From Acuticoccus yangtzensis (lineage in GTDB: Bacteria > Pseudomonadota > Alphaproteobacteria > Rhizobiales > Amorphaceae), in assembly GCF_001927245.1 (NCBI RefSeq), contig NZ_MJUX01000013.1, positions 1-64,000 of the forward strand: 64,000 nt of DNA, read 5' to 3'. The notes under the pieces were generated by a model. The model saw only the letters and a list, made by a program, of their open reading frames with translations. It was not told the origin of the DNA and did no database searches. A program made the position numbers and the translations under genes. This document shows positions 36,735 to 56,735 of this stretch, piece by piece (within the stretch, counting starts at the first letter, position 1; every line of letters starts with the position of its first letter).

Positions 36735-36769
36735 GCCAGGTACGCCAGCTCCCGGCTCCCGGACATGCC

Positions 36770-36964: not shown

Positions 36965-36993
36965 GACGACATCTCCAGTTCATCTCTCGCCGG

Positions 36994-37024
36994 GAAGTGG
37001 GGCTTCCCACCGTGGGAAGGTCAA
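36994..37024 (-). promoter_or_regulatory. CueR-type promoter of copZ
   Basis: On the minus strand TTGACC (37024-37019) is followed by the dyad CTTCCCACGGTGGGAAG and, after a 19-bp spacer, by CACTTC at 36999-36994. The long 19-bp spacer with a central dyad is the signature of MerR/CueR-activated promoters. It mirrors the copA promoter almost exactly. Confidence 0.85.
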
Positions 37025-37060
37025 GATGACCGGCGACATACATTCTTTCGAGGACCGCGC

Positions 37061-37091
37061 TTGACCTTCCCATCATGGGAAGCCCCATCTC
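37061..37091 (+). promoter_or_regulatory. CueR-type promoter of copA
   Basis: TTGACC at 37061-37066, the dyad CTTCCCATCATGGGAAG and a 19-bp spacer to CATCTC at 37086-37091 form a MerR/CueR-type promoter. It is divergent from the copZ promoter, sharing the core TTGACCTTCCCA and TGGGAAGCCCCA. It begins 57 bases before the copA start. Confidence 0.85.
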
Positions 37092-37117
37092 GCGTTGACG
37101 TGCCAAGGGAGGTTCTC

Positions 37118-39652
37118 ATGGATGCATCGGTCGGCCGGCTTCAGCGAACGGAAATGGCGGCGTCGAGTATCGAATTCGGCGTTGAGGGGATGACCTGCGC
37201 GTCCTGCGTCGGCCGCGTGGAAAGAGCTTTGAGGGCGATCCCCGGTGCTACGGATACTAGCGTGAACCTCGCCACCGAGCGAGCCCGAGTGACCTTTACG
37301 GGACCTGCCGACGCCGCTGTGGTGCGCGAGGCGATCGAGGGCGCCGGATACGACGTCGCCGAGGCGACGACCGAGATTGCCGTCGACGGTATGACATGCG
37401 CGTCCTGCGTCGGCCGGGTGGAGCGCGCGCTCGCCGCCGTCCCGGGAGTTAAGTCTGTCAACGTCAACCTCGCGACTGAGCGGGCGACCGTGCGTCACGC
37501 GGACGGGGTGGTGACGACGGCCGCGCTTGTCGAAGCGGTGGAAGACGTCGGGTACCAAGCGAAGCTCGTGAGCGCGGCCGATGCAGGCGACGAGGCGGAC
37601 GCAAAGAAAGCAGGCGAGCTCAAGGCGCTTCAGCGCGACGTCGCCATCGCCGCGGTGCTGACGCTGCCGGTGTTCGTGCTGGAGATGGGCACGCACCTCG
37701 TCCCCGCGTTCCACCACGCCATCGACGTCGCGATCGGGCGCGAGACGAGCTGGCTCATTCAGTTCGCGCTGACGACGCTGGTGCTGTTCGGTCCGGGTCT
37801 GCGCTTCTTCCGAAAGGGTATTCCGGCGCTCCTGCATGGCGGGCCGGACATGAACTCGCTGGTAGCTTTGGGCTCGGGCGCGGCCTGGGCCTATTCGGTG
37901 GCGGCGACCTTCGCAGCTGGTAGCCTGCCCGCGGAAACGCAGAATGTATATTACGAGGCCGCGGCCGTGATCGTCACTCTGATCCTCCTGGGCCGCTTCA
38001 TGGAGGCCCGCGCAAAGGGGCAGACCGGCGAGGCGATCAAGCGCCTGATGGGTCTGAGGGCGAAGACCGCGCGCGTCGTGCGCGGCGACGAGACCGTGGA
38101 CGTGCCAATCGAGGAGGTCACGGCCGGCGACGTGATCGCGGTGCGCCCGGGAGACAAGATCCCCGTCGACGGCGTGGTGCTCGACGGATCGAGCTTCGTG
38201 GATCAGTCCATGATCACGGGCGAGCCGGTTCCCGTGTCGCGCGGCGAGGGGGACGAGGTTGTCGGCGGCACCCTCAACAAGACCGGCGCGTTCACCTTCC
38301 GCGCCACCAAGGTCGGCGCCGACACCGTGCTGTCGCAGATCATCCGCATGGTGGAGACGGCGCAGGGCGCGAAGCTTCCGATCCAGGCGCTGGTCGACCG
38401 CGTGACGTTCGTCTTCGTACCGGTCGTGATGGCGGTCGCGGCCGTCACGTTCCTTGTCTGGCTGACGTTCGGGCCGGATCCTGCGCTCACCTTCGCCCTC
38501 GTCAACGGCGTTGCGGTGCTCATCATTGCGTGCCCATGCGCGATGGGGCTCGCCACACCCACCTCTATCATGGTCGGTACCGGGCGTGGGGCGGAGTTGG
38601 GCGTCCTTATACGCAAGGGAGAGGCGCTCCAGTCGCTGCGGGACGTCACCATCGTGGCGCTGGACAAGACTGGCACACTCACAAAGGGGCGTCCGGAGCT
38701 CACCGACTTCTCCGTGGCGGAAGGCTTCACCGAGGATGAGGTGCTGGCGCTCGTCGCGGCCGTTGAGGCGAAGTCCGAGCACCCGATTGCTGAAGCTATC
38801 GTACAGGCGGCACGGGCGCGCGGACTCTCAGCGGGGGAGGTTGCCGGGTTTGACGCCGTCCCGGGCTTCGGCGTCGGCGCGAACGTCGCGGGCCGGCGCA
38901 TCGACGTCGGTGCGGACCGCTACATGACGCGGTTGGGTCTCGAGCCAGCCACCTTCGCTGATGAGAGCGCGAGGCTGGGCGGGGAGGGTAAGTCGCCGCT
39001 CTACGCCGCCGTCGATGGTCGCCTCGCCGCGGTCATCGCTGTGGCCGACCCGGTGAAGCCGTCGACGGCCGCCGCGCTCGCCACGTTGCATGATCTCGGC
39101 CTGTCGGTCGCGATGATAACCGGCGACAACCGCCGCACCGCCGAGGCCATCGCCACGCGGCTAGGCATCGACGAGGTCATCGCCGAGGTGCTGCCGGACG
39201 GCAAGGTGGAAGCCGTGAAAACGCTTCGGGAGCGCGGCCGCGTGGCGTTTGTCGGCGACGGCATCAACGACGCGCCGGCGCTCGCCGAGGCGGACGTGGG
39301 CCTTGCCATCGGCACGGGCACCGACGTCGCGATCGAGGCGGCGGACGTGGTGCTGATGTCCGGCGATCTCGTCGGGGTGCCGAACGCCATCGCGCTGTCG
39401 CGGGCGACGATGCGCAACATCCGCCAGAACCTCTTCTGGGCGTTCGCGTACAATACTGCGCTGATTCCGGTGGCGGCGGGGGCTCTCTATCCGGCGTTTG
39501 GGTTGCTGCTTTCGCCCATCCTCGCGGCGGGAGCGATGGCGTTGTCGAGCATCTTTGTGCTCACGAATGCCCTGCGACTGAAAGGCTTCCGGCCACCCAT
39601 GGCCCGTGACGGTCGTGTGGTGGCTGCGGTCGCCGCCTCTCCCGCGGAGTGA
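37118..39652 (+). CDS. copA: Cu(I)-exporting P1B-type ATPase CopA
   Basis: An 844-residue pump with two N-terminal HMA domains (MTCASC, Cys27/Cys30 and Cys94/Cys97), the CPC membrane motif at residues 472-474, the phosphorylated Asp516 in DKTGT, the TGE actuator motif and [10 protein letters not shown]. The pattern is of the Cu(I) P1B-1 class. It pumps Cu(I) into the periplasm for the oxidases encoded nearby. ATG 37118 has GGGAGG 9 bases upstream. It is controlled by the CueR-type promoter at 37061. Confidence 0.96.
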
Positions 39653-41885: not shown

Positions 41886-41917
41886 ACTTTAACCCCCTTC
41901 CGGGGTTGAGGTTTGAT
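41886..41917 (+). promoter_or_regulatory. Possible MerR-family promoter box
   Basis: A dyad AACCCC-CTTCC-GGGGTT (41891-41907) lies between a weak -35-like ACTTTA/CTTTAA and TTTGAT at 41912-41917, with the 19-bp spacing seen at the copA and copZ promoters. The arms differ from the CTTCCC/GGGAAG arms of the copper boxes, so it may bind another MerR-type protein. Confidence 0.4.
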
Positions 41918-41948
41918 CAGCCTACATGTGATCTCAACGGAGAAGCCT

Positions 41949-42812
41949 GTGTCTTATTTGCGTTTCGCTGCGATGATCCTGACGTCGACAGCCGTCATGT
42001 TCGTCCTCATGTATCTGAACACGTATCTCTTCAGTCACGTCTTCTTCTCGGAGACGCGGACGTACATGGCGATCATGATGGGCGCGGTCATGACGCTGAT
42101 CATGCTGGCCTTCATGCTGGCAATGTACAAGAACACCCGCCTCAATTTTGCGATCTTCGCCGGCGCGGTAGTCGTTTTCGGTGTGTCGCTCTGGCTCGTA
42201 CGCAGTCAGGTCACGGTCGGCGACACATCCTACATGCGCGCGATGATCCCGCATCACTCGATCGCCATCATGACTTCGAGCCGAGCGGATATCTCCGACC
42301 CGCGCGTGCGCAAGCTCGCCGACGAGATCATCTACGCGCAGGACAAGGAGATCGCCGAGATGCGCTTCCTCATCGACGACATCGACCGGAACGGTGACGG
42401 CACCGGGACGGCTGCGCCGTCCGCGTCGGTAATGACGCTCGACGAGGCGCTCGCCACGGCGGACCTTCCCTCGCTCGACCCGCAGTTTATGACGGACGAT
42501 GAGATCGCGCTGGGTCTTTCGGGCGGAACGACATGCCGGTTCACCTATACCGAAGGAAGCCGTCCAGTGCTGGCGCTTGCCAGCGACGGCGCAGCGCTAA
42601 TGAAGATCAGCGGGGACCTCGTGCAACTGCAGGCCGACCCGGCCTCACTTGCCAGAGGCCCGACGGCTGCCGCAGCGGGTGTGTCGATGGCTGTCAATGG
42701 ACCGACCGGCGATCTCCTCGCGGGTGATGGCGAGCGTGACGCTGTGCTGACGATGAGCCTCGATCGCGGGATGACCGTTGGCTACAGCGGCTTCTACGAC
42801 TGCCGCACCTAA
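41949..42812 (+). CDS. Membrane protein with a DUF305 domain
   Basis: A 287-residue protein with three N-terminal membrane helices (within residues 5-100), a DUF305 region with the typical YMRAMIPHHSIAIMTSSRA and AQDKEIAEMRFLI, and an extra C-terminal beta-rich domain of about 120 residues. DUF305 is a four-helix-type domain frequent in metal resistance clusters. GTG 41949 has GGAG seven bases upstream; a TTG at 41913 would extend into the promoter region. The gene order DUF305-cueR suggests a metal response. Confidence 0.85.
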   Translation: MSYLRFAAMILTSTAVMFVLMYLNTYLFSHVFFSETRTYMAIMMGAVMTLIMLAFMLAMYKNTRLNFAIFAGAVVVFGVSLWLVRSQVTVGDTSYMRAMIPHHSIAIMTSSRADISDPRVRKLADEIIYAQDKEIAEMRFLIDDIDRNGDGTGTAAPSASVMTLDEALATADLPSLDPQFMTDDEIALGLSGGTTCRFTYTEGSRPVLALASDGAALMKISGDLVQLQADPASLARGPTAAAAGVSMAVNGPTGDLLAGDGERDAVLTMSLDRGMTVGYSGFYDCRT

Positions 42813-42833: not shown

Positions 42834-43307
42834 ATGAACATCGGGCAGGCTGCGAAGGAGTCTGGTGTCAACGCCAAGATGATCCGATACTATGAAAGTA
42901 TTGGCCTCATAGGCGCGGTCGAACGATCTGCTGCGGGATACCGAAGCTACGCACCAGCCGATATCCAGACCCTTCGCTTCGTAAGGCGGGCGCGTGATCT
43001 CGGCTTTTCGATCAATCAGATTGCGGAGCTGTTGAAACTCTGGGGGGACGGGTCGAGAGCGAGCGCGGACGTGAAGTCCGTTGCGCTGGCCCACATCGCA
43101 GAGCTGGAAGGCAAGATCGCGGACATGCAGGCGATGGTCTCGTCGCTGCGAAACCTCGCCTCCCACTGCTCAGGCGACGAACGCCCGGAGTGTCCGATCA
43201 TCGACGACCTTGCTGAAGCAGGGGGCGGAGCGGGCCGGCCGAATTCCCAACGCCGCGCATCGGCGTCGAAAGGCGGCCCCGCAACGAGCCCCACTACGAG
43301 CGCGTGA
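42834..43307 (+). CDS. cueR: CueR-like MerR-family copper regulator
   Basis: A 157-residue activator with the MerR helix-turn-helix (MNIGQAAKESGVNAKMIRYY, residues 1-20), the long dimerisation helix and a metal loop with the two-Cys pattern CSGDERPEC expected of Cu(I)/Ag(I) sensors. It has a GGAGG site before ATG 42834. It is the likely controller of the copZ, copA and DUF2933/nuo-like promoters in this window. A Ser/Ala/Gly-rich tail of about 25 residues follows the sensor domain. Confidence 0.93.
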   Translation: MNIGQAAKESGVNAKMIRYYESIGLIGAVERSAAGYRSYAPADIQTLRFVRRARDLGFSINQIAELLKLWGDGSRASADVKSVALAHIAELEGKIADMQAMVSSLRNLASHCSGDERPECPIIDDLAEAGGGAGRPNSQRRASASKGGPATSPTTSA

Positions 43308-43811: not shown

Positions 43812-43842
43812 TTGACCTTACCATGCTGGAAGGTTGTAGCTT
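43812..43842 (+). promoter_or_regulatory. CueR-type promoter before the DUF2933 and nuo-like genes
   Basis: TTGACC at 43812-43817, the dyad CCTTACCATGCTGGAAGG (43816-43833) and TAGCTT at 43837-43842 give exactly the 19-bp spacing of CueR promoters. It begins 64 bases before the DUF2933 gene. The next gene is nuoA, 79 bases after DUF2933, with no obvious terminator between. Confidence 0.88.
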
Positions 43843-43875
43843 ATTCTGGAAGTGATCTTCTAAAGGATGAGGCCC

Positions 43876-44175
43876 ATGCGCGGCGCGCCATCGTCTAATG
43901 AAATTAATATTGACCCAGAACTTGGATCTCAAAGGACTTCGAAGTCCGCAGGTAATATCGGGATGTGGGCGTGCTGCGTTGCGATGCTCGTGCCCATCGG
44001 CATATACTTCGCCTCCGGCGGAAGCCTGACCAGTGTGACCTCTGCAATTGGTCTGCTTGCTCCGCTGGCCCTTTGCGGTGGCATGCACTTCGTCATGCAT
44101 CGCTGGCTTGGCCGCTCCTGCCACGGCGCCGCGCAGGGCGTTCCGACCGCCGAGCCTTCCCGGCGACGAGCTTAA
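43876..44175 (+). CDS. DUF2933 family small membrane protein
   Basis: A 99-residue protein with two membrane helices and the DUF2933 ending CGGMHFVMHRWLGRSCHG. Conserved Met, His and Cys residues make copper binding plausible. The family is frequent in copper/silver clusters. ATG 43876 has GGATGAGG upstream; ATG 43867 is possible. It is the first gene after a CueR-type promoter and immediately precedes the complex I-like operon. Confidence 0.8.
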   Translation: MRGAPSSNEINIDPELGSQRTSKSAGNIGMWACCVAMLVPIGIYFASGGSLTSVTSAIGLLAPLALCGGMHFVMHRWLGRSCHGAAQGVPTAEPSRRRA

Positions 44176-44254: not shown

Positions 44255-44599
44255 TTGGAAGCGCTCCTCACCGCCCTCGTTCTGACCGGCATCTTCGTCG
44301 CGCTCGTCCTGGCGGCGTACCGGGCGTCCGGCCCGCGATGTTCGCCCTGGCCGCAGCGACTTCCCTTCCTTGGCGGCGGTGAAGCCGACACGCACGCCTG
44401 GCAGCGCTACCATGTGCGCTTCTACACGATGACGCTCGTCTTCATCGCCTTCGAGATGGAGATGATGTTCATGTACCCGTGGGCGGTCGTGTTCGTCGAA
44501 GAGGGCCTGAAGGCGCTCGCCGAGATGGGGATGTTCCTGGCCATTCTCTCCCTCGGCATCCTCTATGGTTGGCGCGAAGGGATCTTCCGGTGGCAGTAG
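44255..44599 (+). CDS. nuoA: NuoA-like subunit of a complex I-like membrane module
   Basis: A 114-residue protein from TTG 44255 with three membrane helices. The second helix region FYTMTLVFIAFEMEMMFMYP matches the NuoA FLIFDIExxFLYPWA motif including the acidic residues. The first loop reads FLGGGEADTHAWQRYHVRFY and lacks the conserved cysteine-containing loop of true NuoA/ND3, which sits near the quinone site in complex I. It overlaps the next gene by 10 bases. Confidence 0.88.
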   Translation: MEALLTALVLTGIFVALVLAAYRASGPRCSPWPQRLPFLGGGEADTHAWQRYHVRFYTMTLVFIAFEMEMMFMYPWAVVFVEEGLKALAEMGMFLAILSLGILYGWREGIFRWQ

Positions 44600-45576
44600 G
44601 AGGCACCCCGGTCTTCGTCGCCGCGGGTGGCGGTGTCCTCGGCGCAGTCGAGGCACTGCGGCTGGAGCCAGCGCTGACGCTGGTCGCGACCCCACGGGCT
44701 GCGCAGGTGCTCGTTGTGGCGGGCGAGCAGCGACCAAGCGACCGTATCGCCCTCGCGCGGATCCACGCCCAGCTTTTTGAGCCCCGCGCGACCGTGTGGT
44801 GGCGCGCCGACCGGCCGTCAGGATTCGACTTCGGCACCGGCGCGCCGGAGAGTGTGTCCGACGCTGCGGCCTTCATCAGTGCGCAGGCGACGCAGTCCGA
44901 GGGTGAGGCGATCCTGCTCGACGATGGGCCACCCAACCCGTGGGAGGGCGTCGGACCTTACGGTCAGGGCGGCAATGGCATGATGGGCGGGACACCCTAC
45001 GGCCGACCGATGGCGATGACGACCGACGACCTGCGAGATGGTTTGGCGCTCGACGCATACAGCGCGACATTCGGCCCGTATCTGACACAATGGCCGCCCG
45101 GTCTCATCATGGAGACGACGCTCCAGGGCGACGTGATCCAGTCCGTCCGCATCGTCGAAGCGCCGCTCGCGCAGGACCTTCTCGCGGCGACGCCTCATTT
45201 GGAGCTCGCACGCCTCCTGCGGCTCCTCGAGCTTCCTGCGCTCGCCGATCGGCTCGTGCGGGCGGCGCTAGCCGATCCCGCGCGCGCCGCAGCCGGGCTG
45301 GCCCGCGCGGTCCGGTGGACAGGCCTTCTCGCCGCGATCCCGTCCGCGCTCGCCCGCGACGAGAGCGGCGGCGACGTGCGCAGTCGGACGGCGGGCCGGC
45401 TCGACGCGCTGAGCGCCGGCCGACCCGCCGACCCGGCCGCACCCGGCGATCTCGCCGCGATGCTCATCGGCCTCGAATGGCACGAGGCGGCGCTGGTCCT
45501 GGCGAGCTTTTCCATCGACGAACTGCGCGGAGCGATCGCGTCGCCGGCCGTCCGAATGGCGAAGGGCGCCGCATGA
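44590..45576 (+). CDS. Cysteine-free NuoB/NuoD-like fusion protein of the complex I-like module
   Basis: A 328-residue protein from GTG 44590, overlapping nuoA. Residues 28-72 (TPRAAQVLVVAG, then LFEPRATVWW) follow the NuoB strand-loop pattern (PRxADxxxVAG, then a PEPR-like strand). Residues 123-189 (GPYGQGGNGMMGG, PYGRPMA, DGLALDAYSATFGPYLTQWP, GLIMETTLQGDVIQ) resemble part of NuoD and related hydrogenase large subunits. The remainder is alpha-helical and Ala/Arg-rich. There is no cysteine in the whole protein, so it cannot hold the N2 iron-sulfur cluster. It sits exactly where nuoB-nuoG would lie. Function inferred: a structural cap or an adaptor for the membrane arm. Confidence 0.7.
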   Translation: MAVGGTPVFVAAGGGVLGAVEALRLEPALTLVATPRAAQVLVVAGEQRPSDRIALARIHAQLFEPRATVWWRADRPSGFDFGTGAPESVSDAAAFISAQATQSEGEAILLDDGPPNPWEGVGPYGQGGNGMMGGTPYGRPMAMTTDDLRDGLALDAYSATFGPYLTQWPPGLIMETTLQGDVIQSVRIVEAPLAQDLLAATPHLELARLLRLLELPALADRLVRAALADPARAAAGLARAVRWTGLLAAIPSALARDESGGDVRSRTAGRLDALSAGRPADPAAPGDLAAMLIGLEWHEAALVLASFSIDELRGAIASPAVRMAKGAA

Positions 45577-46484
45577 GCCTCGCAGCATTCCCGTTCCTAG
45601 CGTTCTTCCTGGCGCTGGGCGCCGCGCTCGTGGTCGTCCTCGACGCCGTCGCGCGGGCGGCGCTCGCAGGCGCGCCGGCGGGGCCATACCTCGCTGGCAC
45701 CTTCCGCCATGCCGCGATGCGTCTCTCCGGTCAGTTGGTGACAACCGAGGCGCCCGACCGTGCCAACTGGCGCCTCGCCCCGGCGTGGTACGGGGCGCTC
45801 GCGGCGGCGGGTCTCGCCGTTGTCCCGTTCGGCGAGGGCATGGCCCTCATCCAGCTACCCACGAGCATCGTTCTCTGGGGCGCGGTCGAGGCGCTGGTGG
45901 TGGTCGTCGTCTTCCTCCACGGGTGGTCGCCGAACGCGCCGTTCCCGCTGATCGGTGCCTACCGCTACGTCGCCACCGGCCTGCCGGTCATGCTGCCGTC
46001 GATGTTCGTTCTCATCGGCGCCGCCCTTCCGGCCCGCTCGCTCGACGTACTCGCCATCGTCGAAAGTCAGCGTGAGATGTGGAATGTCGTACGCCAGCCG
46101 CTGGGGCTGCCGCTCTTCCTCATCGTCGGCCTGTCGCTCACCTTGCGCGGGCCGATGGACTACGCCGATTCCGCCGACCTTGCCGGCGGTAGCAGCGCCG
46201 AGGACTCCGGCCCCGCGCGGGCCATGTGGCAGGCGGCGCGGCTCGCGATGCTGGTCGCATTCTCGGCGATGGCGGCGACCGTCTTCCTCGGCGGCTACCT
46301 CGGCCCGCTGCTGCCTGGACCGCTTTGGCTCGCGCTCAAGACTGCGCTCGTCCTCGAGCTGATGGTGGCGGCAACGCACCTCCTACCAAGAATGCCGGTA
46401 TCGCGGATGGTGACATTCTTGTGGGTCGTCCTCCTGCCGGTCTCCTTCCTCCACCTCCTTGCCGCGGGGCTCGTCGCGCTATGA
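45573..46484 (+). CDS. nuoH: NuoH-like subunit
   Basis: A 303-residue membrane protein with about eight helices. The quinone-loop region after helix 1 is degenerate: the canonical GPN and LQPxAD motifs are replaced by GAPAGPYLAGTFRHAAMRLS. VVPFGEG and a later helix with LRGPMDYADSADLAGG correspond to conserved parts of NuoH, but the usual Glu-rich loop is shortened. It probably anchors the 328-residue protein to the membrane. It overlaps the genes on both sides by four bases. Confidence 0.85.
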   Translation: MSLAAFPFLAFFLALGAALVVVLDAVARAALAGAPAGPYLAGTFRHAAMRLSGQLVTTEAPDRANWRLAPAWYGALAAAGLAVVPFGEGMALIQLPTSIVLWGAVEALVVVVVFLHGWSPNAPFPLIGAYRYVATGLPVMLPSMFVLIGAALPARSLDVLAIVESQREMWNVVRQPLGLPLFLIVGLSLTLRGPMDYADSADLAGGSSAEDSGPARAMWQAARLAMLVAFSAMAATVFLGGYLGPLLPGPLWLALKTALVLELMVAATHLLPRMPVSRMVTFLWVVLLPVSFLHLLAAGLVAL

Positions 46485-47191
46485 CCGACGCGCTGTTCAC
46501 CGGTCTCTCCGCTCTGGCGCTCTACGCCGGTTGGCGCGTCTTCCGCGTCGATTCCATGGTGCGGGCTAGCTTCTGGCTGATGATCTCGTTCATCGCCGTC
46601 GGCGGGATCGGACTCCTCCTGTCGGCGCCATACATCGGCGTCGCGACGGTCTTCATGATGGCCGTGGAGATGACCGTCATGGTGCTCTTCATGGTCATGT
46701 TCATGATGAACCCGGCCGGCCTCAACCCGATGATGATGGTCCATCAGCACCGCTTCTCCATCGGCGTCGGGGTCGTCGCTTTCGCCGGAATGACGGCTGC
46801 GACGCTCCTCACCGACCTACCATCGAACCCTGTCGCGGCGGGCAAGGCGATTGTCCACGACCTGGGGATCGAGCTTCTGGGGGACTCGATGCTGATCTTC
46901 GAGACCGCCGGCGTCACGTTGCTCGCGACGATGGTGGCCGCCGTCATCCTCTCCGCGCGCACGGGTCGCTTCGGCGACGCCGTCGAGGGCTCGGTCCCGC
47001 CGGGCCTCGAGCCGGGAGGGACGCCCGCGGGCCGCGTGCCGGAGAAGAGCGGCGGCCACCACCACGGCCACGGCGGACACGACCACGGCTCCCACGGCGA
47101 CGGTAGGAGCGATCACGCACACCATCACGAAGGGGATGGCCACGACAGCGGCGGGCACGATCATGCCGGCGACAAGGAGAAGCACGCATGA
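46481..47191 (+). CDS. nuoJ: NuoJ-like subunit with a His-rich tail
   Basis: A 236-residue protein with five membrane helices; the VFMMAVEMTVMVLFMVMFMM helix is the NuoJ pi-bulge-type helix. The last 45 or so residues form a hydrophilic tail with 15 histidines (HHHGHGG, HDHGSHGDG, DHAHHHEGDGHD). Such a tail is not part of normal NuoJ and looks like a metal-binding extension. It overlaps nuoH and nuoK by four bases. Confidence 0.88.
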   Translation: MTDALFTGLSALALYAGWRVFRVDSMVRASFWLMISFIAVGGIGLLLSAPYIGVATVFMMAVEMTVMVLFMVMFMMNPAGLNPMMMVHQHRFSIGVGVVAFAGMTAATLLTDLPSNPVAAGKAIVHDLGIELLGDSMLIFETAGVTLLATMVAAVILSARTGRFGDAVEGSVPPGLEPGGTPAGRVPEKSGGHHHGHGGHDHGSHGDGRSDHAHHHEGDGHDSGGHDHAGDKEKHA

Positions 47192-47493
47192 CGCTCGCCT
47201 CGGTTCTCATCGTTGCCGCGGGGCTCATCGGCATCGGCCTCTACGGCGCACTATCGCAGCAGTCCTTCGTCATGCTGATGATGGGGCTCGAGCTGATCAT
47301 GAACGGGGCGCTTCTGGCGGTGCTCGGCTTCTGGTCGTTCGCGCTCGGCGGGATGCCGGAGGGGCAGCTCCTCGCGATCGTCATCATGGCCGTCATGGCG
47401 GTGGAGATGGCGGCCGGGTTCGCGCTCGTCGTCGCCGTTTACCGCAACCGGCAGGCGGACGTCATCGAAAGCCTCACGACGCTGAAACAATGA
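47188..47493 (+). CDS. nuoK: NuoK-like subunit
   Basis: A 101-residue protein with three membrane helices. It has the typical glutamates of NuoK in MMGLELIMNGALLAVLGFW and in VMAVEMAAGFALVVAVYRNR, which take part in proton translocation in complex I. Its stop overlaps the nuoL start by four bases. Confidence 0.93.
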   Translation: MTLASVLIVAAGLIGIGLYGALSQQSFVMLMMGLELIMNGALLAVLGFWSFALGGMPEGQLLAIVIMAVMAVEMAAGFALVVAVYRNRQADVIESLTTLKQ

Positions 47494-49394
47494 TCCTCGC
47501 CCTCGTCGTCCTCCTGCCGACGCTCGCCGGATTTGCCCTCATTGCCGCCGCGCCGGACCGGCGGGGTGAGCTCGCATTGGCCGCCGGGTTCATCCTCGGC
47601 GCCACGCTGGCGCTCGCCGTGGCGGCGATCCTCACCGGCGATACGCTCCTCATCGTCTGGGGCAGCGGCATCGAGCTCGCCGGGCGGCTGACGCCGCTTT
47701 CGGCGATCATGCTCATCCTCCCGCCGCTCGTCGCGCTCCCCGTCGTGGTACGCGGCGCGCTGACGGAGGAAGGGCCAGGCTTGCCGCGCATGGTCGGCCT
47801 CCTTCTCGTGTTCGTCGGCGGGATGGAGCTCGTCGTCATTGCGGACGATCTCGTCACGCTACTCGTCGGGTGGGAGGTGATCGGCGCGGCCTCGTGGGCG
47901 CTGGTCGCCCATCGCTGGCGTGATCCGGACGCCGTGACGTCCGGCATCTGGGCGTTTGTCGTCACGCGCACGGGCGACCTCGGCCTGTTCCTCGCGCTGA
48001 TGGCGACTGTCGCCGCCACCGGCTCGACCCGGCTCAATGCTCTCGGTGAGCTGACCGGCATGCCTCTCCTGCTGGTGTCAGCGGGCCTTCTGGTTTCGGC
48101 GGCGGCTAAGGCGGCGCAAGCGCCGTTCTCGCCGTGGCTGTTCCGGGCGATGGATGGACCGACTCCGGTCTCCGCGCTGCTCCACAGCGCCACGCTGGTC
48201 GCCGCCGGCGCCTACCTCGTCCTGCGCGCCGGGCCCATGCTGGGCGACGGGTTCGGGGCAGGCGCGATGGCGGTCGGCGCTACCACCGCGGTTGCCGGCG
48301 GAATCGTCGCGCTCCTCAACCTGCACGCCAAGCGGCTCCTCGCCGGATCGACCTCGGCGCATCTCGGGCTCATGTTCGTGGCGGCGGGCGCCGGATATCC
48401 GGGTGTCGCGCTCGCCCACCTCGTCACCCACGCAGCAATGAAATCGGCGCTCTTTATCGAGGCCGGCACCGCGCACGAGCTTCGCGGCACCTACGCGCTG
48501 GACCGCCTGGCCATCGGTCGTGCCGTACCGGTCCTCACCTGGATGACGCTCTTGCCCACGCTGGCGCTCGCCGGCATCCCGCCACTCGGCGCGGCGTGGA
48601 GCAAGGAGAAGATCGCTGGCGCCGCGCACGATGCCTCGACGCTCGCTACCATAGCGGTCGTCGTGGGGGGGGCACTTAGCGCCGCCTACGCGATGCGTTT
48701 CTATGTCGCCGTCTTCTCCCCCGGCCCGGACGTCGACCCCGGCCGTATCCCATCTCGTGCGGTATTAATCCTGCCGTCGGCCTTCCTCGCCGTGGTGACG
48801 CTGGCCCTATCGGTGCTGTGGATCCCCGCGGTTCCCAACACCATCGCCGATCGTCTCGGGGTTGCCCTGCCGCCCGGCTCGCTCGGCCTGTTCGCCGCCT
48901 CCATCGCGGCGATCGCGGCCGGGGCCGTCCTCGGCATCGTCATCGCCCGGCGACGCGCGGATCTAGGCCGCAATGACACTGCAGCGGCGCTCGGCGACTG
49001 GCTCGGTCTTCCGTGGCTCTTGGAGAACGCGGTGGCGCGGCCGGCCGTCGCGCTTGCCCGCGTCCTCGCCCGCATCGACGATGTCCTCGTCGACCGCGGT
49101 GTGCACCTTGGCGCAGCGCTGTCGCGGACGATTGCCCACGTCCTTGCCCGCATCGACGACACTGTCGTCGACCGCGGCGTGCGCCTCGTCGCTGCGTTGT
49201 CACGGTGGCTCGCCAACGCGGGGGACCGCTTTGGCGAGTGGGCTACCGATAGCCTGCCCCGGTTGACCGCCTATCTCGTCGGCGCAGCCGGCGGCGGCGT
49301 GCGGCGCACGCAGACCGGGCTTTCCCACCATTATTTCGCGATCCTCGTGGCGGGCCTCGCCGTCGCGGTCGCCGTCCTCTCCTACGGAGCGTGA
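47490..49394 (+). CDS. nuoL: NuoL-like antiporter subunit with an altered C-terminus
   Basis: A 634-residue antiporter-type subunit with about 14 helices. Typical segments are GWEVIGAASWALVAHRWRD, FSPWLFRAMDGPTPVSALLHSAT and HAAMKSALFIEAG, with key Lys and His residues present. Near residues 510-565 a segment VLARIDDxxVDRGVxLxAALSR is repeated twice back-to-back before a final membrane helix. The lateral helix of normal NuoL lies in this region, so its sequence may be a new connector. It overlaps nuoK by four bases. Confidence 0.92.
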   Translation: MILALVVLLPTLAGFALIAAAPDRRGELALAAGFILGATLALAVAAILTGDTLLIVWGSGIELAGRLTPLSAIMLILPPLVALPVVVRGALTEEGPGLPRMVGLLLVFVGGMELVVIADDLVTLLVGWEVIGAASWALVAHRWRDPDAVTSGIWAFVVTRTGDLGLFLALMATVAATGSTRLNALGELTGMPLLLVSAGLLVSAAAKAAQAPFSPWLFRAMDGPTPVSALLHSATLVAAGAYLVLRAGPMLGDGFGAGAMAVGATTAVAGGIVALLNLHAKRLLAGSTSAHLGLMFVAAGAGYPGVALAHLVTHAAMKSALFIEAGTAHELRGTYALDRLAIGRAVPVLTWMTLLPTLALAGIPPLGAAWSKEKIAGAAHDASTLATIAVVVGGALSAAYAMRFYVAVFSPGPDVDPGRIPSRAVLILPSAFLAVVTLALSVLWIPAVPNTIADRLGVALPPGSLGLFAASIAAIAAGAVLGIVIARRRADLGRNDTAAALGDWLGLPWLLENAVARPAVALARVLARIDDVLVDRGVHLGAALSRTIAHVLARIDDTVVDRGVRLVAALSRWLANAGDRFGEWATDSLPRLTAYLVGAAGGGVRRTQTGLSHHYFAILVAGLAVAVAVLSYGA

Positions 49395-49398
49395 CCCG

Positions 49399-50904
49399 AT
49401 GCTGACCCTTGCGATCCTCGTCCCGTTCGTCGGGGCCTTGGTCCTCGTGACCGCCCCCGGTTTGAGGGCAACGACCTCGCGTGCGCTCGCCGTCGCCACC
49501 GCCGCGGTGCCGCTGGCGCTCCTGTGCTTTGCATGGTCGCGCTTCAGCCTAGGCGGCACCGACTTCCAGCTCGTCGAGGAGATGGCATGGGTGCCGGCGC
49601 TCGGCGTCGCCTGGCGCGTCGGCGTTGACGGCGTGTCGCTGGCGCTGTCCCTGATGACGGGGGTCCTCTTCGTCGCCACGATCGCCTGGCCGATGGAGCA
49701 GCGCGAGCGGGAGCGCCAGTACTATGCCTGGTTCCTGTTCCTGGAAGCCGCGTCGCTTGGCCTCTTCCTCACGCTCGACCTTCTCGTCTTCTACGTGTTC
49801 TTCGACCTCTCGCTGGTCGGCATGTTCTTCCTGATCGGCCGCTGGGGGCACGGAGAGCGGCAGGCTGCGGCGCTGAAGTTCTTCATCTACACCTTCGTCG
49901 GCTCACTCGCGATTCTGCTCGCGATCATCGTGCTCGTCCTTCGCACCGATCCGATGACGTTCGATATGCGCGTGCTGATCGCACAGCAGCCGCTCGCCGG
50001 GGCGGGGCCGGTCGCGACGCTCGTCTTTCTCGGCTTCGTCATGGGCTTCGCGATCAAGGCGCCGCTGTTTCCGGTCCACACATGGCTACCACCGGCGCAC
50101 GTCAACGCGCCTGGGCCGGCGTCCGCCATCCTCGCCGGCGTTCTCCTCAAGATGGGCACCTACGGCATGGTCCGGATGCCGCTCCAGATGATGCGCGAAA
50201 CGTTCGCGGCCTATGCGCTGCCCCTGGCTGTCGTCGCCCTCGCGTCGATCCTTTGGGGCGCGTTCGTGGCGCTCGGCCAGACCTCGATCAAGCGGCGCAT
50301 CGCTTACACGTCGGTCAACCACATGGGCTACGCGGTGCTCGGCATCGCGGCGGCGGGCGCGCTCGTCGCCGGTGAGGAGCACGCGCGCCAGCTCGCCCTC
50401 ACCGGCGCGGTGGTGGAAATGGTGGCGCACGGGCTCATCACCGGCACGCTGTTCCTCCTTGCCGGCAGTATCTGGGCGCGGGCGGATACTTACGAGATGG
50501 ACCGCTTCGGCGGTCTCGCCGGCGTCGCGCCGAAGCTGACGGCGGCGACGGTGGTGGCGGCCTTCGCGAGCCTCGGCCTGCCGGGCCTCGCCGGCTTTGT
50601 CGCCGAGGTGCAGATCTTCATCGGCGCTTTCGCGGTGTTCCCGTGGGTTGCGGCCGTCGGCCTCGTCGGCATCCTCATCACCGCCGCGCTGTTCCTCACG
50701 ATGCTGCTGCAGGTCTTCTTCGGCGAGCGACCGGTGGAGCGGAACGCCTTTGCGGACGTCGGCCGGGTGGAGGGGGCGGTCCTCCTCGCCATCCTCGCCC
50801 TCGTCGTCGTGATCGGCGTCTATCCCGCTTGGCTCCTCGACCTCGTCAATGCCGCCACGGATAGCGCCGTCGTCGGGACCGCCACCGTCGCGCCCGGGGG
50901 CTGA
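49399..50904 (+). CDS. nuoM: NuoM-like antiporter subunit
   Basis: A 501-residue antiporter-type subunit with about 14 helices. It has the Glu in LAGTG-equivalent helix FYVFFDLSLVGMFFLIGRWG, the motif FAIKAPLFPVHTWLPPAH with its Lys and His, and TSVNHMGYAVLG. These are the proton-path residues of NuoM. It starts four bases after nuoL. Confidence 0.95.
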   Translation: MLTLAILVPFVGALVLVTAPGLRATTSRALAVATAAVPLALLCFAWSRFSLGGTDFQLVEEMAWVPALGVAWRVGVDGVSLALSLMTGVLFVATIAWPMEQRERERQYYAWFLFLEAASLGLFLTLDLLVFYVFFDLSLVGMFFLIGRWGHGERQAAALKFFIYTFVGSLAILLAIIVLVLRTDPMTFDMRVLIAQQPLAGAGPVATLVFLGFVMGFAIKAPLFPVHTWLPPAHVNAPGPASAILAGVLLKMGTYGMVRMPLQMMRETFAAYALPLAVVALASILWGAFVALGQTSIKRRIAYTSVNHMGYAVLGIAAAGALVAGEEHARQLALTGAVVEMVAHGLITGTLFLLAGSIWARADTYEMDRFGGLAGVAPKLTAATVVAAFASLGLPGLAGFVAEVQIFIGAFAVFPWVAAVGLVGILITAALFLTMLLQVFFGERPVERNAFADVGRVEGAVLLAILALVVVIGVYPAWLLDLVNAATDSAVVGTATVAPGG

Positions 50905-50908
50905 GGCG

Positions 50909-52318
50909 ATGCCGATCGGCGACCTTGCACCAGAGATCGCGGTTCTCTTCACCGCGGTTGCAACGCTCCTCTTTGCGATGTTCGCGCCGCGTCGGCTGCA
51001 TGTCGTCGGCGCGATCATCGCGCTCTCCGGCCTCACTGTGGCGGGTGTTCTCCTCGCAGACCAGCTCGGTCGCACAGGCACCACCTTCTCCGGCACCTTC
51101 GCGATCGATGGCGTCGGTGTCTGGGCTCGCTTCCTGATCCTCGTCGCGACAGGCGTGTGCGTGATGATCTCACCGGGCTGGTTTGCAACGGACCGCCGCC
51201 ACGGCGAGGTCTACGCGGTGTTTCTTCTGTCGGCGGTTGGGGCGATGGCGCTCGCTGGCGCCGCCGACCTGATGCAGCTCGTCGTTGCCGTGCTCCTGTC
51301 GTCCGTCACCGGCTACACGCTGGCCGCCTACCATCGCGGCTGGGCAATCTCGGTGGAAGCGGGGATGAAGTATTTCCTCATCGGCGCGCTCGCCAACGCC
51401 GTCCTCGTCACCGGCGTCGTATTCGTGACCGGTATGGCCGGGGTTACCGGCTACGAGCCGCTCGCGAACGCCTTTGCCGATGGGCTCATCGCCTCGCCGC
51501 TCCTTGTTGCCGGTCTTGCGATGGTCGCCGTCGGGATCGCCTACAAGCTTGGTGCTGCACCGGCGCATACTTGGGTACCAGACGTCGCGGAAGGCGCGCC
51601 AGTTCCATCGGCGGCGTTCCTCACGGTGGTCCCGAAGATCGGCGCCGCGGTAGCATTCGCGCGGTTGGTCACCGCTGTTCCTCCAGATGCTCTCGCGTTG
51701 CGTCCCCTCGTCGCGACAATAGCGGCTGTGACGATGACGATTGGCAACCTAGCTGCGCTCCGGCAGCAAGATGTGCGGCGGCTACTCGGCTGGTCGTCCG
51801 TCAGCCAGGCTGGGTACGTGCTGATGGCGGTTGTCGTTATCGACCTCGATACCGGTGCGCCGACAGCACTTGTCGCGATGCTCGGAGCGTATACCGTCGG
51901 CAACATCGCCGCGTTCGCCGTTGTCGCGGACCTTCGCGGTCGAACGGCGCTTTCGGACTATAGCGGCCTCGCGGCGCGCCGGCCGCTTGACGCCGTGGTG
52001 TTGGCGCTTGCGTTTCTTTCCCTCGTTGGCATCCCGCCCACAGTCGGCTTCTTCGGAAAGTTCACAGTGTTCGAGGTTACAATCGCCGGCGGTTACGGTT
52101 GGCTCGCCCTCGTGGCGGCGACAAATACGGTTGTGTCGCTCATCTACTACGCCCGCGTGCTGTCGCCGATGGTCTTCGATGCATCAACCAATGGCGCCGT
52201 AGCCCAACTCGACAAAATGACTTGGGCGGCGGCGGTCGCAACGGGATCGGCCATTATAGCACTTGGGCTCACCGCCGGGCTCCTGCTGGATCAGCTCGCC
52301 GACATCAGCCTCCTGTAA
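50909..52318 (+). CDS. nuoN: NuoN-like antiporter subunit
   Basis: A 469-residue antiporter-type subunit with about 13 helices. Segments YKLGAAPAHTWVPDVAEGAP, LLGWSSVSQAGYVLM and FLSLVGIPPTVGFFGKF match NuoN, including the Lys and His of the proton path. It starts four bases after nuoM (ATG 50909) and is the last gene of the operon. A non-coding stretch of about 360 bases follows. Confidence 0.93.
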   Translation: MPIGDLAPEIAVLFTAVATLLFAMFAPRRLHVVGAIIALSGLTVAGVLLADQLGRTGTTFSGTFAIDGVGVWARFLILVATGVCVMISPGWFATDRRHGEVYAVFLLSAVGAMALAGAADLMQLVVAVLLSSVTGYTLAAYHRGWAISVEAGMKYFLIGALANAVLVTGVVFVTGMAGVTGYEPLANAFADGLIASPLLVAGLAMVAVGIAYKLGAAPAHTWVPDVAEGAPVPSAAFLTVVPKIGAAVAFARLVTAVPPDALALRPLVATIAAVTMTIGNLAALRQQDVRRLLGWSSVSQAGYVLMAVVVIDLDTGAPTALVAMLGAYTVGNIAAFAVVADLRGRTALSDYSGLAARRPLDAVVLALAFLSLVGIPPTVGFFGKFTVFEVTIAGGYGWLALVAATNTVVSLIYYARVLSPMVFDASTNGAVAQLDKMTWAAAVATGSAIIALGLTAGLLLDQLADISLL

Positions 52319-53351: not shown

Positions 53352-54802
53352 CCCGCTGGTCCCGTGCAGCGAGTGCTGTGACTCTCGCCGGGTTCCTTAG
53401 TGGCTGCGTTTCCGCCGCGGAGTTTCCCATCGATCGGGGATTTGCCGCCGTCAGCGCCGGCGCCGAGCCGGTCACGAAGTCCCGAAGTGTTTGGGCGACG
53501 AATGCGGTCCAGCAGGCACAGAACGAAGCCGAGGTGCACTCACTCGTGACAGACCGCACCATCGACGCCGATACGGCGGTGCGCGTCGCTCTTTTGAACA
53601 ACCAGGATCTGCAGGCGGCTTATGCGGACCTTGGCCTCTCGGTAGCCGCGCTCTGGCAGGAGAGCTTGCCGGTGAATCCCCGTTTGTCGCTTGGGGTCAA
53701 TACCACTACCGACATTCTGACCCAGGCCGTCGAAGGCGCCGTGATCGCCAATGTCCTATCCTACGCCACACGCGGACGTCGTGTGGCCATCGCGGAAACG
53801 CGCGTTCGCCAGGCGCAGCAACGCGCCATCGAAGCCACTTTGCGGCTCGCTCATGAGACACGACGTGCTTACTACGAAGCGGCAGCGGCGTGGGGAGTTG
53901 TCATCGAGCTGAACCGTGCGCTTGTCGCGGCGGACGCCGCCGCAGAATTGGCGGCCGAGCTCGGTAAAACCGGCGCTTTCTCCAAAGTCGAGCAAGCACG
54001 TCAGCAGGCCTTCTACGCGGAACTCACCTCCGAGAAGGCCCGTGCAGTGATGGCAGCCCGACTTGCCAAGGAGGAGCTGACGCGTCGCCTTGGGCTTTGG
54101 GGTGCCCGGCTTTCCTACGAGGTTCCAAATGGCCTGCCGCCTCTGCCCCGTTCAATCCCCGATCAATCCGCCATTGAACGGTTGGCGCTTCAAAACCGCG
54201 CCGACCTCAAGATCGCGAAGCTGGAGCTTGAAGCGCTGGCGCGCAGTTATGGCCTTACGAAAGCGACCCGGTTCGTCACCGACCTTGAGGTCGCCGCAGG
54301 GCTGGAGCTCGAGCGCGAAGAAGAGGTGGACGAAGGTGATACCACGGTTACGAATCGTCTGACGCCCCGGCTCGAAGCGGATTTCGCGATTCCAATCTTC
54401 GACACGGGAGACGCACGCCTCAGAACGGCGGAGCTCAAAATCATGCGGGCGACAAACCTCCTTGCCGCCCGCGCCGTGGCCGTGCGCTCGGAGGCTCGAG
54501 CTGCACATACCGCGTACCGGGGTACCTACGACATCGCCAAGCACTACCGTGACGCTGTCGTTCCGCTGCGCAAGACCGTCGAGGACGAGGCCGTCCTGAC
54601 CTACAACGGCATGATCACCAATACATTCGATCTGCTGGCCGATACCCGTGCGCGCATCGAGTCCGTGAGGGCTTCGCTCGAGGCACGGCGGGACTTCTTC
54701 CTCGCGGAGGTCGATGTCGCGGCGGCGATCTGGGGTGGTGGTGTTGCCGGTTCTGAACCCGCCGAAACCGAGGTTGCAGAAGCCGAAGGAGACGAAGAAT
54801 GA
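53348..54802 (+). CDS. Outer-membrane efflux protein (TolC/CusC-like lipoprotein)
   Basis: A 484-residue protein with a lipobox (GFLSGCVS) and two OEP-type coiled-coil repeats. The first has DTAVRVALLNNQDLQAAYAD, the second SAIERLALQNRADLKIAKLE. It would form an outer-membrane duct. No RND pump or membrane-fusion partner is seen nearby, which is odd for a CusC-type channel; it may work with another exporter. It overlaps the second oxidase by four bases (ATGA). Confidence 0.9.
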   Translation: MTRWSRAASAVTLAGFLSGCVSAAEFPIDRGFAAVSAGAEPVTKSRSVWATNAVQQAQNEAEVHSLVTDRTIDADTAVRVALLNNQDLQAAYADLGLSVAALWQESLPVNPRLSLGVNTTTDILTQAVEGAVIANVLSYATRGRRVAIAETRVRQAQQRAIEATLRLAHETRRAYYEAAAAWGVVIELNRALVAADAAAELAAELGKTGAFSKVEQARQQAFYAELTSEKARAVMAARLAKEELTRRLGLWGARLSYEVPNGLPPLPRSIPDQSAIERLALQNRADLKIAKLELEALARSYGLTKATRFVTDLEVAAGLELEREEEVDEGDTTVTNRLTPRLEADFAIPIFDTGDARLRTAELKIMRATNLLAARAVAVRSEARAAHTAYRGTYDIAKHYRDAVVPLRKTVEDEAVLTYNGMITNTFDLLADTRARIESVRASLEARRDFFLAEVDVAAAIWGGGVAGSEPAETEVAEAEGDEE

Positions 54803-56190
54803 CCGATCGTTCGAGTGCCACCGGCATGTCACGGCGCCAGATCCTGGGCGCAGGTGCTGCAGCCGGAGCTCTGGTATCCACCGCAGCATGGTCGCGCACG
54901 ACCAACATGAGCTTGCCTGATGCGCCGCTGATGGAAAGTTCGGCCACGCAGGCCCCGGTGAGACCGACGGCGGGACTTCCATACAATCCGGTCTGTACGC
55001 TGAACGGCTGGTCGCTTCCGTTCCGCATGAACGGCAATGTCAAGGAATTCCATCTCGTCGCCGAACCGGTCGAGCGCGAGCTTTCCGACGGCACGATCGC
55101 GCATCTCTGGGGCTATAACGGTCAGTCGCCGGGGCCGACCATCGAAGCGGTGGAAGGCGAGCGCGTCCGCATTTTCGTCACCAACCGGCTTCCGGAACAC
55201 ACAAGCGTGCACTGGCACGGCCTCATCCTGCCGTGTGGCATGGATGGTGTCACGGGACTGACCCAGCCCGGCATTCCGGCCGGCAAGACCTTCGTCTACG
55301 AGTTCGAACTGACGAAGTCAGGCACGCATATGTACCACCCTCACGGCGACGAGATGGTGCAGATGGCGATGGGCATGATGGGCTTCTTCGTCATCCATCC
55401 GAAGGACCCGGATTTCATGCGCGTCGACCGGGACTATGTGTTCCTGCTGTCGGCTTATGACATCGACCCGGGCAGTTACATGCCCCGCGTCATGGAGATG
55501 ACCGACTTCAACCTGTGGGCCATCAACAGTCGCGTCTTTCCAGGCGTCGATCCGCTTGTGGCCGCGAAGGGGGACCGGGTCAGGGTGCGTGTGGGCAACC
55601 TGACGATGACCAACCATCCGATCCACATGCACGGCTACCATTTCGAGGTGACGGGCACTGATGGCGGTTGGGTGAGGCCCGAGGCGCGCTGGCCGGAAGT
55701 GACGATCGACATCCCCGTCGGGGCGATGCGCGCCTATGAATTCGACGCGATCCACGAAGGCGACTGGGCACTGCACTGTCACAAGTCGCATCACACGATG
55801 AACGCGATGGGCCACGACGTCCCGACCTTCATCGGCGCTGACAAGACGAACGTCGCCAGAAAGATCCGCCTTATCCAGCCCGAATATATGCCGATGGGCA
55901 CCAACGGCATGGCGGATATGGCCGAAATGGCGATGCCGATCCCGGACAACACCGAACCCATGATGGGGGGATGGGGCCCCTTTGGCTCAGTGGAGATGGG
56001 CGGCATGTTCACGGTGATGAAGGTTCGCGAAGGGCTCGCCGCGGACGATTATTCGGACCCCGGTTGGTTCGATCATCCCCCGGGTACCGTCGCTTACGAG
56101 TGGACGGGTTCACTGCCCGAGGTGGCCTCCATGGACGAGGCCGCCACGGTTCCGCCGCAACACGCCGAGCCCGTTCGGCGGGTTGACTGA
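54799..56190 (+). CDS. Multicopper oxidase, second type, Tat-exported
   Basis: A 463-residue oxidase with a twin-arginine signal (SRRQILGAG, residues 11-19). Copper motifs are HWHG at residues 138-141, MYHPHGDEM near 178-186, the NHPIHMHGYHF block and HCHKSHHTMNAMGH. The Met/His-rich sequence after the last motif resembles the copper-resistance oxidases of manganese/copper type. It differs clearly from the oxidase at 30317, so the two may use different substrates or copper loads. Confidence 0.92.
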   Translation: MTDRSSATGMSRRQILGAGAAAGALVSTAAWSRTTNMSLPDAPLMESSATQAPVRPTAGLPYNPVCTLNGWSLPFRMNGNVKEFHLVAEPVERELSDGTIAHLWGYNGQSPGPTIEAVEGERVRIFVTNRLPEHTSVHWHGLILPCGMDGVTGLTQPGIPAGKTFVYEFELTKSGTHMYHPHGDEMVQMAMGMMGFFVIHPKDPDFMRVDRDYVFLLSAYDIDPGSYMPRVMEMTDFNLWAINSRVFPGVDPLVAAKGDRVRVRVGNLTMTNHPIHMHGYHFEVTGTDGGWVRPEARWPEVTIDIPVGAMRAYEFDAIHEGDWALHCHKSHHTMNAMGHDVPTFIGADKTNVARKIRLIQPEYMPMGTNGMADMAEMAMPIPDNTEPMMGGWGPFGSVEMGGMFTVMKVREGLAADDYSDPGWFDHPPGTVAYEWTGSLPEVASMDEAATVPPQHAEPVRRVD

Positions 56191-56213: not shown

Positions 56214-56735
56214 ATGAAGCTTCCTGCTGCTGCGTGGCTCGCCGCCACGCTCATTATCACTCCGGCTACGGCATTCGCCGCTGGCAGTCACTCTGGTGGC
56301 CACGAGAATGGCCATTCCGCAGAGGCCGACGCTGATGATCATCACGGGGAGATGGCGATCGGCTCCCCCGGTAAAGCAGCCGAGGTGGTTCGAACGATCC
56401 GCATCTCAATGAAGGAAACCGATAGCGGAGCGATGGTTTTCGAGCCAGCGTCCATCGACGTGAAGCGCGGCGAAACCATACGCTTTTCGATTACCAATGA
56501 CGGGGTACTCGAGCATGAGTTCGTGATGGACGCTTCGCCAGAGATCGCCGAACACAAAGATCTCATGCGGCGGTTTCCTGAGATGATGCACGACGATGAA
56601 AACGCAGTGCGTCTCGAGCCAGGCGATGATGGCGAGATTCTATGGCGCTTTACCAATACTGGCAGCTTCGAATTCGCATGCCTCATTCCCGGTCACTACG
56701 AGATGGGGATGCACGGTCCACTCACCGTCAATTAA
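56214..56735 (+). CDS. Exported cupredoxin-like copper protein
   Basis: A 173-residue protein with a signal peptide (AAWLAATLIITPATAFA), a His-rich linker (GSHSGGHENGHS, DDHHGE) and a cupredoxin domain. Type I copper ligands are His in EHEFVMD and Cys-His-Met in FACLIPGHYEMGM. It would store or shuttle copper or electrons in the periplasm. It follows the oxidase by 24 bases. Confidence 0.92.
   Translation: MKLPAAAWLAATLIITPATAFAAGSHSGGHENGHSAEADADDHHGEMAIGSPGKAAEVVRTIRISMKETDSGAMVFEPASIDVKRGETIRFSITNDGVLEHEFVMDASPEIAEHKDLMRRFPEMMHDDENAVRLEPGDDGEILWRFTNTGSFEFACLIPGHYEMGMHGPLTVN

Follow-up and report, generated by a model that had tools for sequence, protein, structure and literature searches.

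A plasmid-borne relative of complex I that has lost its electron-passing parts and probably employs the proton gradient to transport or sense copper

What can the membrane arm of respiratory complex I do when the parts that feed it electrons are gone? The question is raised by an operon of eight genes, nuoA-X-nuoH-nuoJ-nuoK-nuoL-nuoM-nuoN, at positions 44255-52318 of a 64,000-nt stretch of DNA (the window) from the draft genome of Acuticoccus yangtzensis, where the module lies on contig C4. An earlier note had described these as mostly overlapping genes from which nuoB-G and nuoI are missing, and both points were confirmed. All eight reading frames were found, with overlaps of 4-10 bases at five of the seven junctions (L-M and M-N are separated by 4 bases), and seven of the eight proteins score above the cut-off of complex I Pfam families, X being the exception. 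No gene of the NuoC, E, F, G or I type was found in the window operon, nor is any annotated in 13 intact plasmid operons described below. The module forms a new branch within the complex I superfamily, a relative of complex I found on plasmids that has lost the electron-passing parts and, rather than taking part in respiration, probably draws on the proton gradient to transport or sense copper. That it is not a redox system is very likely, and a function with copper or another soft metal is likely.

The strongest evidence for a metal function, read from aligned sequences, is the gain of methionines in NuoA, NuoJ and NuoK together with metal-binding inserts in the X proteins of relatives. Methionine is a typical ligand of Cu(I) and Ag(I). 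A position was counted as gained when methionine was present in at least 90% of the family and in at most 20% of canonical sequences; the canonical set was drawn from Pseudomonadota only, with rows taken by best reading frame, and 24 family sequences were compared with 31 canonical ones for NuoJ, 28 with 32 for NuoA and 23-24 with 31 for NuoK. By this rule 16 methionines were gained, 11 in NuoJ, two in NuoA and three in NuoK. The 11 NuoJ positions hold methionine in 23-24 of 24 family members, against 0-1 of 31 canonical sequences. Seven of them (59, 60, 64, 67, 71, 75 and 76) are placed by homology in transmembrane helix 3 (TM3), and M84, M86 and His88 come after it. Canonical Tyr59 (31/31) is replaced by methionine and canonical Ala62 (31/31) by glutamate, each in 24 of 24 family members; the gains other than methionine are Glu63 and His88 in NuoJ and His53 in NuoA. 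The NuoA methionines stand one and four residues past the E81 acid, and those of NuoK include positions three residues before Glu72 and one after it. In complex I, coupling at the E-channel involves NuoJ TM3 and NuoA D79, from which the path continues to NuoK E36 (PMC13324432, PMC8357420).

A second comparison used two canonical references and a threshold of 80%. It gave 17 methionine gains in NuoA, NuoJ and NuoK and none in NuoH, NuoL, NuoM and NuoN, where the methionine content fell, and the gains are therefore not explained by drift in composition. The chance that all 17 would fall in these three subunits (451 of 2358 residues) is 6e-13, given an even spread and treating the gains as independent. 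When aligned with solved NuoJ chains (6hum, 8qby, 9g83, 3rko, 7p61) and NuoK chains (6hum, 7wff, 4he8, 9grx), the family motifs were absent from all of them. The NuoJ of four members (the window, L011, L012 and L015) ends in a His-rich tail, with 4-15 histidines in the last 60 residues, and the tails of the other eight family members have 0-1.

The X protein was harder to place. In single-sequence searches window X gave no Pfam match, nothing in the PDB and one weak NCBIfam match to NuoB (E 0.076), and the view that it has NuoB-like and NuoD-like segments is upheld through its relatives rather than by X alone. A profile of five window-type X matched two NuoB sequences (hhalign P 1.7e-6), and a NuoB-like part is common to window-type and long-type X (profile match 4.1e-14); with relatives included, the NuoB ancestry of X is clear. 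The likeness to NuoD is carried by the longer relatives and not by window-type X itself. Pfam Complex1_49kDa is matched by Halomonas X, which is 38% identical to window X (2.7e-7), and by three long-type X (4.4e-13 to 4.1e-16); the long-type profile matches NuoCD over residues 211-591 of 596 (2.6e-9), an X relative matches MbhL at 1.5e-12 (phmmer), and the fused NuoBCD model NF009808 of NCBIfam matches X of relatives. For window-type X itself, the profile of five sequences gave 0.26 against two NuoCD, which is not significant, and a direct match to NuoD was rejected. When 398 Pseudomonadota genomes were searched with an X profile (E <= 0.001), a match was obtained in 311. Among the matches listed, five genomes had a full X and four a long-type X, and nearly all others were stretches of ~50 residues (profile ~28-78), mostly in NuoB-sized frames, the own canonical nuoB of Acuticoccus being one of them.

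It is between the two halves of X that the metal-binding inserts are found. The heavy-metal-binding domain HMBD (Pfam PF19335) occupies this place in the three long-type X scanned (2.6e-28, 1.4e-31 and 3.5e-44); CPMHP motifs occur one to three times per protein in all seven long-type X, His-rich runs also lie between the halves, and the CusB model NF007303 matches long-type X. Actinobacterial short-type X have Met/His-rich or GHE/GEH runs instead. The halves of window X are joined by a short segment, GQGGNGMMGGTPYGRPMAM, which is nearly invariant in the five proteobacterial short-type members aligned. As side observations, a long GEH tandem repeat separates the two halves of a Pseudonocardia X (L018 11134-12609), and the X of R. 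oxybenzonivorans has 407 residues.

The features by which complex I handles iron-sulfur clusters and quinone are missing. Cysteine was found at the ligand positions of cluster N2 in none of the 18 aligned X, three positions falling in gaps and the fourth being occupied by a non-Cys residue. The complete lack of cysteine that the earlier note described holds for window X and for its 88% identical sister in an Erythrobacter metagenome-assembled genome (L042), but not for the 16 other X, which have 2-14 cysteines. The canonical NuoD segment of the GPNHPSAHG type reads GPYLTQWPPG in window X and GP....(W/L/F)P.G in all 18, and the NuoD His pair, part of the quinone site, is absent. The quinone loops of NuoA and NuoH are degenerate, as had been noticed before: at NuoA positions 50-52, canonical sequences have Tyr (31/32), Glu (32/32) and Cys (31/32; E. 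coli has F-E-S), against 1, 0 and 0 of 28 in the family, and the acidic loop of NuoH is altered in the family by alignment. In window NuoA, where the Tyr-Glu-Cys loop is gone, the motif FEMEMMFMYPWA surrounds the E-channel acids (D79/E81 in E. coli).

The membrane arm, by contrast, is there in full, with subunits A, H, J, K, L, M and N, and by alignment it has its channel residues, the exceptions being NuoN Glu133 and NuoH Glu157. Among the residues that we take to serve in the channels (E. coli numbers), E144, D178, K229, H254 and K399 of NuoL are retained in 12 of 12 members, counted without the out-of-frame row from genome G193. NuoM retains K234, K265 and E407, and an acid (E/D) at 144, in 13 of 13; NuoN retains K247 and K395 in 13 of 13 and K217 in 12; NuoK E36 and E72 are retained in 12 of 12. 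The L, M and N proteins also match Mrp-type antiporter models.

A search for further genomes with the same gene order, as had been proposed, showed that the module is widespread. The same region, with an X that is 100% identical, is found on a plasmid of Acuticoccus sp. I52.16.1. Three X queries, run by tblastn against 72,556 plasmid records, gave hits in 21, 107 and 16 of them; among those listed of the 107, some hits are to the metal domain of ATPases and efflux adaptors. The surroundings of 12, 5 and 10 of these records, respectively, were read, corresponding to 20 distinct plasmid loci. By annotation the eight-gene order is intact in 13 of them (L010, L011, L012, L015, L016, L018-L021, L043-L046), L018 and L019 being counted as intact with an annotation that covers only the end of X. 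Six loci are cut, interrupted or partly annotated (L013, L014, L047-L050), and the genes of L017 are annotated solely as hypothetical. The 13 intact operons come from Acuticoccus, Roseivivax, Halomonas, Arthrobacter, Mycobacterium, Pseudonocardia (two), Gordonia, Curtobacterium, Rubrobacter, Paracoccus, Roseovarius and Sulfitobacter, and the module thus occurs in Alphaproteobacteria, Gammaproteobacteria and Actinomycetota. A scan of genome contigs with X gave one locus, and a scan of viral contigs with two X queries gave none. In a NuoH tree, 21 family rows stand apart from seven canonical rows and one other with a support of 99/100; long-type operons form the sister group of the window-type ones, which split into a proteobacterial and an actinobacterial branch. 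Among the damaged copies (L013, L047, L048), X is shortened or followed by insertion sequences in Martelella and Pseudarthrobacter, and in Xanthobacter Py2 the operon stops after a short X.

A tie to nearby copper proteins had been raised as a possibility, and the wider family agrees with it: a copper marker (CopA-type ATPase, multicopper oxidase or CusA) was found within the fetched stretch in 20 of 28 module loci. In the window, a CueR-type operator precedes DUF2933 and nuoA (Table 1). It is the sole exact match in the window, where 0.01 are expected at <=1 mismatch, it resembles the E. coli copA promoter, and a CueR-type operator is also present in the 88% sister L042. In Martelella (L013 4055-4074) the CueR-type pattern occurs once, ahead of an L,D-transpeptidase/cytochrome c run and not of nuoA.

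How the module might work is suggested by these observations taken together. We tentatively favour a pump for Cu(I) derived from complex I, driven by the proton-motive force and spread by plasmids across Proteobacteria and Actinomycetota, in which a Met/Glu site at NuoA-J-K would replace the quinone-driven input to the E-channel. In complex I it is this A/J/K region that relays the quinone signal to the antiporter subunits. The electron-input (quinone/Fe-S) module would have been rebuilt as X, metal-binding in many relatives, which would cap the membrane arm where the quinone site used to be. X, with the His-rich NuoJ tail where present, would collect Cu(I) from the cytosol and pass it to the Met/Glu site around NuoJ TM3, and protons entering via NuoN, NuoM and NuoL would drive it outward. 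Overall, complex I coupling would operate with a metal ion in place of quinone at the input end. Judging from the charge distribution and from knowledge of complex I, the NuoJ TM3-4 loop and tail would be cytosolic. The gene order, the loss of the N2 ligands, the channel residues, the methionine gains and the metal domains of relatives support this scheme at the sequence level, as do the CueR-type operator, in the window and one 88% sister only, and the lack of a canonical partner in three genomes (see below). The identity of the metal as Cu(I), its passage across the membrane and the direction of its movement are inferred; proton-driven Cu(I) transport, with export as the likeliest direction, is a prediction that is about as likely as not to hold.

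Several observations weigh against this scheme. The copper markers searched for were absent in 8 of the 28 loci, although some of these eight are short contigs and some of the 28 are near-duplicates, and control stretches from the same plasmids had copper genes in two of four by annotation. Given this mixed control, gene neighbourhood alone is weak, being supporting and not decisive, and it was rejected as proof of a copper function since control stretches carry copper genes too. The spacing of the window operator is one base shorter than in the copA promoter, and the ATPase gene contains another such site, with one mismatch. In the 700 bp upstream of nuoA, none of the 20 other loci scanned showed a CueR-type operator (3-5 mismatches at best), and conservation across the family was rejected, the operator being found ahead of nuoA solely in the window and L042. 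Window X and the other proteobacterial short-type X have neither an HMBD nor a His-rich linker. The AlphaFold model of X, made with one relative (Erythrobacter L042, 88%), has a predicted local distance difference test score of 37 and a predicted template-modelling score of 0.23, too poor to use, and thus lends no structural support to the fold of X or to a metal path. A one-sided methionine stripe on NuoJ TM3 was not significant (14% of random placements were equal), canonical NuoJ Met73 (30/31) is lost in the family, and to our knowledge no vertical metal path has been described in complex I A/J/K. Among the channel residues, NuoN Glu133 is kept in 0 of 13 (Leu/Val), NuoK Arg25 in 0 of 12 (Gln), NuoL His334 in 8 of 12 (Gln in four) and NuoH Glu157 in 5 of 13. 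Finally, the NuoH tree was flagged for long branches, and family counts are not independent because there are near-identical copies among the rows.

The main rival to Cu(I) pumping is a copper-gated cation/proton antiporter or proton valve, in which metal bound to X and A/J/K would switch L/M/N, copper itself not crossing the membrane, and L/M/N would exchange H+ for Na+/K+ or tune the proton gradient under copper stress. This is the less likely of the two accounts, albeit one to be taken seriously: L/M/N match Mrp-type models and retain most channel residues, the metal sites may be regulatory, and an ion-channel-family gene lies beside cueR in the window, as one does ahead of nuoA in both Martelella and Pseudarthrobacter. 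However, 16 nearly invariant methionine gains seem excessive for a sensor, and genes of the Mrp E/F/G type are not annotated in the operons read.

A copper-redox enzyme, in which a Cu(I)/Cu(II) change in X would power proton pumping instead of quinone chemistry, is improbable. X does occupy the former Fe-S/quinone site, and cytochromes c and multicopper oxidases adjoin several loci, but no electron donor or acceptor gene is common to all operons read, NuoC/E/F/G/I-type genes are not in the operons, and neither the N2 ligands nor the His pair of NuoD remain.

Could the module instead borrow a peripheral arm from an ordinary complex I of its host? Nine module-bearing genomes were searched for NuoH, and six of the nine also for NuoB/NuoD. 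A second, canonical NuoH is present in six of nine, and in the Acuticoccus genome the complete gene set of a canonical complex I is divided among three sites (A-F on contig C2, G-H-I on C12 and J-N on C25; L040, L083 and L041); as far as this draft genome shows, nuoBCDEFGI is not found beside the module on C4. In G314, G395 and G193, all rated 100% complete, the module's NuoH is the sole copy and no NuoB or NuoD was found except X. Lacking NuoB and any further NuoD or NuoH, these genomes leave the module no peripheral arm to borrow, and sharing was rejected for these three genomes; X is, in addition, itself the NuoB/NuoD counterpart. Judged by gene content, then, the module has to do without NuoB-G and I in these three genomes at least, and borrowing is a most implausible explanation. 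The earlier idea of an ion-translocating module that lacks electron input is in line with this absence of a partner, with the N2 ligand loss in 18 of 18 X and with the conservation of the family. That the operon is a decaying, non-functional nuo fragment spread on plasmids is equally implausible, since order and most channel residues are retained across Proteobacteria and Actinomycetota and the gains are directional and nearly invariant, the copies interrupted by insertion sequences or ending after X (Martelella, Xanthobacter, Pseudarthrobacter) notwithstanding.

Table 1. Genes and sites of the window, operon first (positions of the window; Pfam values as obtained).
Feature	Position	Strand	Remarks
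nuoA-like	44255..44599	+	TTG start; Pfam PF00507 2.6e-22
X, degenerate NuoB-NuoD fusion	44590..45576	+	GTG start; 328 aa; 0 Cys
nuoH-like	45573..46484	+	quinone/E-loop altered (alignment); Pfam PF00146 4.1e-39
nuoJ-like	46481..47191	+	Met-rich TM3 region MMAVEMTVMVLFMVMFMMNPAGLNPMMMVHQH; C-terminal tail His-rich; Pfam PF00499 6.8e-16
nuoK-like	47188..47493	+	Glu36/Glu72 retained, Glu72 within VMAVEM; Pfam 3.5e-16
nuoL-like antiporter subunit	47490..49394	+	channel residues retained; Pfam 1.4e-45
nuoM-like antiporter subunit	49399..50904	+	channel residues retained (Glu144 -> Asp); Pfam 8.8e-63
nuoN-like antiporter subunit	50909..52318	+	channel lysines retained, Glu133 -> Leu; Pfam 9.9e-55
Heavy-metal P-type ATPase	36731..39652	+	start uncertain
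DUF305/DUF6692 protein	41913..42812	+	
CueR-like MerR regulator	42834..43307	+	annotated cueR in NZ_CP094829.1
CueR-type operator ACCTTACCATGCTGGAAGGT	43815..43834	+	overlaps TTGACC -35-like box, 43812-43834; ahead of DUF2933-nuoA
DUF2933 small protein	43867..44175	+	between operator and nuoA; Pfam 2.5e-4, 21.5 bits vs cut-off 21
Multicopper oxidase	54799..56190	+	
Cupredoxin	56214..56735	+	

Some further neighbours were seen. The ion-channel-family gene that adjoins cueR in the window lies at 43315-43758, and both Acuticoccus (window 40469-41788) and Halomonas (L012 11373-12710) have an APC family permease upstream of the module. The ergothioneine genes egtB and egtD follow nuoN in Halomonas KO116 (L012) and in L037, L038 and L039; the last three are from three genomes of one family with similar X, and egtD is cut by the stretch end in L038 and in two pieces in L039. 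Contig C52 of genome G333 (L067, L075, L079) carries a third set that resembles complex I and is possibly hydrogenase-related; it comprises NuoB, a NuoD-like frame of 523 aa and a NuoH of divergent sequence.

The module shares with respiratory complex I the seven membrane subunits in the same order, most L/M/N/K channel residues and the NuoB/NuoD ancestry of X. It differs in lacking NuoC, E, F, G and I and the N2 cysteines, in having lost the NuoD His pair and the NuoA Tyr-Glu-Cys loop, and in having gained the A/J/K Met/Glu residues and, in many X, metal-binding inserts. Fused NuoBCD complex I likewise has NuoB and NuoD parts in a single chain, but in X a metal-binding or short linker stands in the place of NuoC and there are no cluster ligands. 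With the CusCBA/CopA exporters the module has in common the HMBD domains of long-type X; CusA handles Cu(I) by methionines, but folds and energy coupling of these exporters are unrelated to those of a complex I-type module. Mrp cation/proton antiporters also use NuoL/M/N- and NuoK-like proteins in a non-redox setting, whereas the module has NuoA, H, J, K, L, M and N with a NuoB/D-like cap, and MrpE/F/G are not annotated (judged by annotation and gene order). Group 4 NiFe hydrogenases and Ehr have an Fe-S NuoB-like subunit and ferredoxin-like subunits, and the module has neither (ferredoxin by annotation of the operons read). Ehr/Mbx-type complexes are complex I relatives without Ni- and Fe-coordinating residues (PMC6349859). 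They are thought to be redox-linked, whereas the NuoB-like part of the module is without cluster ligands and is fused to a NuoD-like part.

The earlier note knew of no system of this composition, and our literature search likewise found no recognisable description, most subscription papers being beyond its coverage. The closest work found reports Nuo subunits, mostly in partial sets, on plasmids of 57 species, and in its accessible part the nuoA-X-nuoHJKLMN module is not described (PMC12361115). Plasmid annotation at present shows a 'hypothetical' or 'heavy metal-binding domain-containing' protein beside subunits of 'NADH-quinone oxidoreductase'. Should the Cu(I) reading prove right, we know of no precedent for such a function in the complex I superfamily. 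A much-debated question of complex I is by what means the chemistry of quinone is linked to proton channels as far as 200 angstroms from it. The module has retained most proton channels and the coupling helix, with the driver apparently swapped for a metal ion, and thus offers a direct test of coupling. If a metal at NuoA-J-K alone does drive or gate L/M/N, the coupling step would need no electron transfer. The module would also represent a new kind of copper-resistance determinant.

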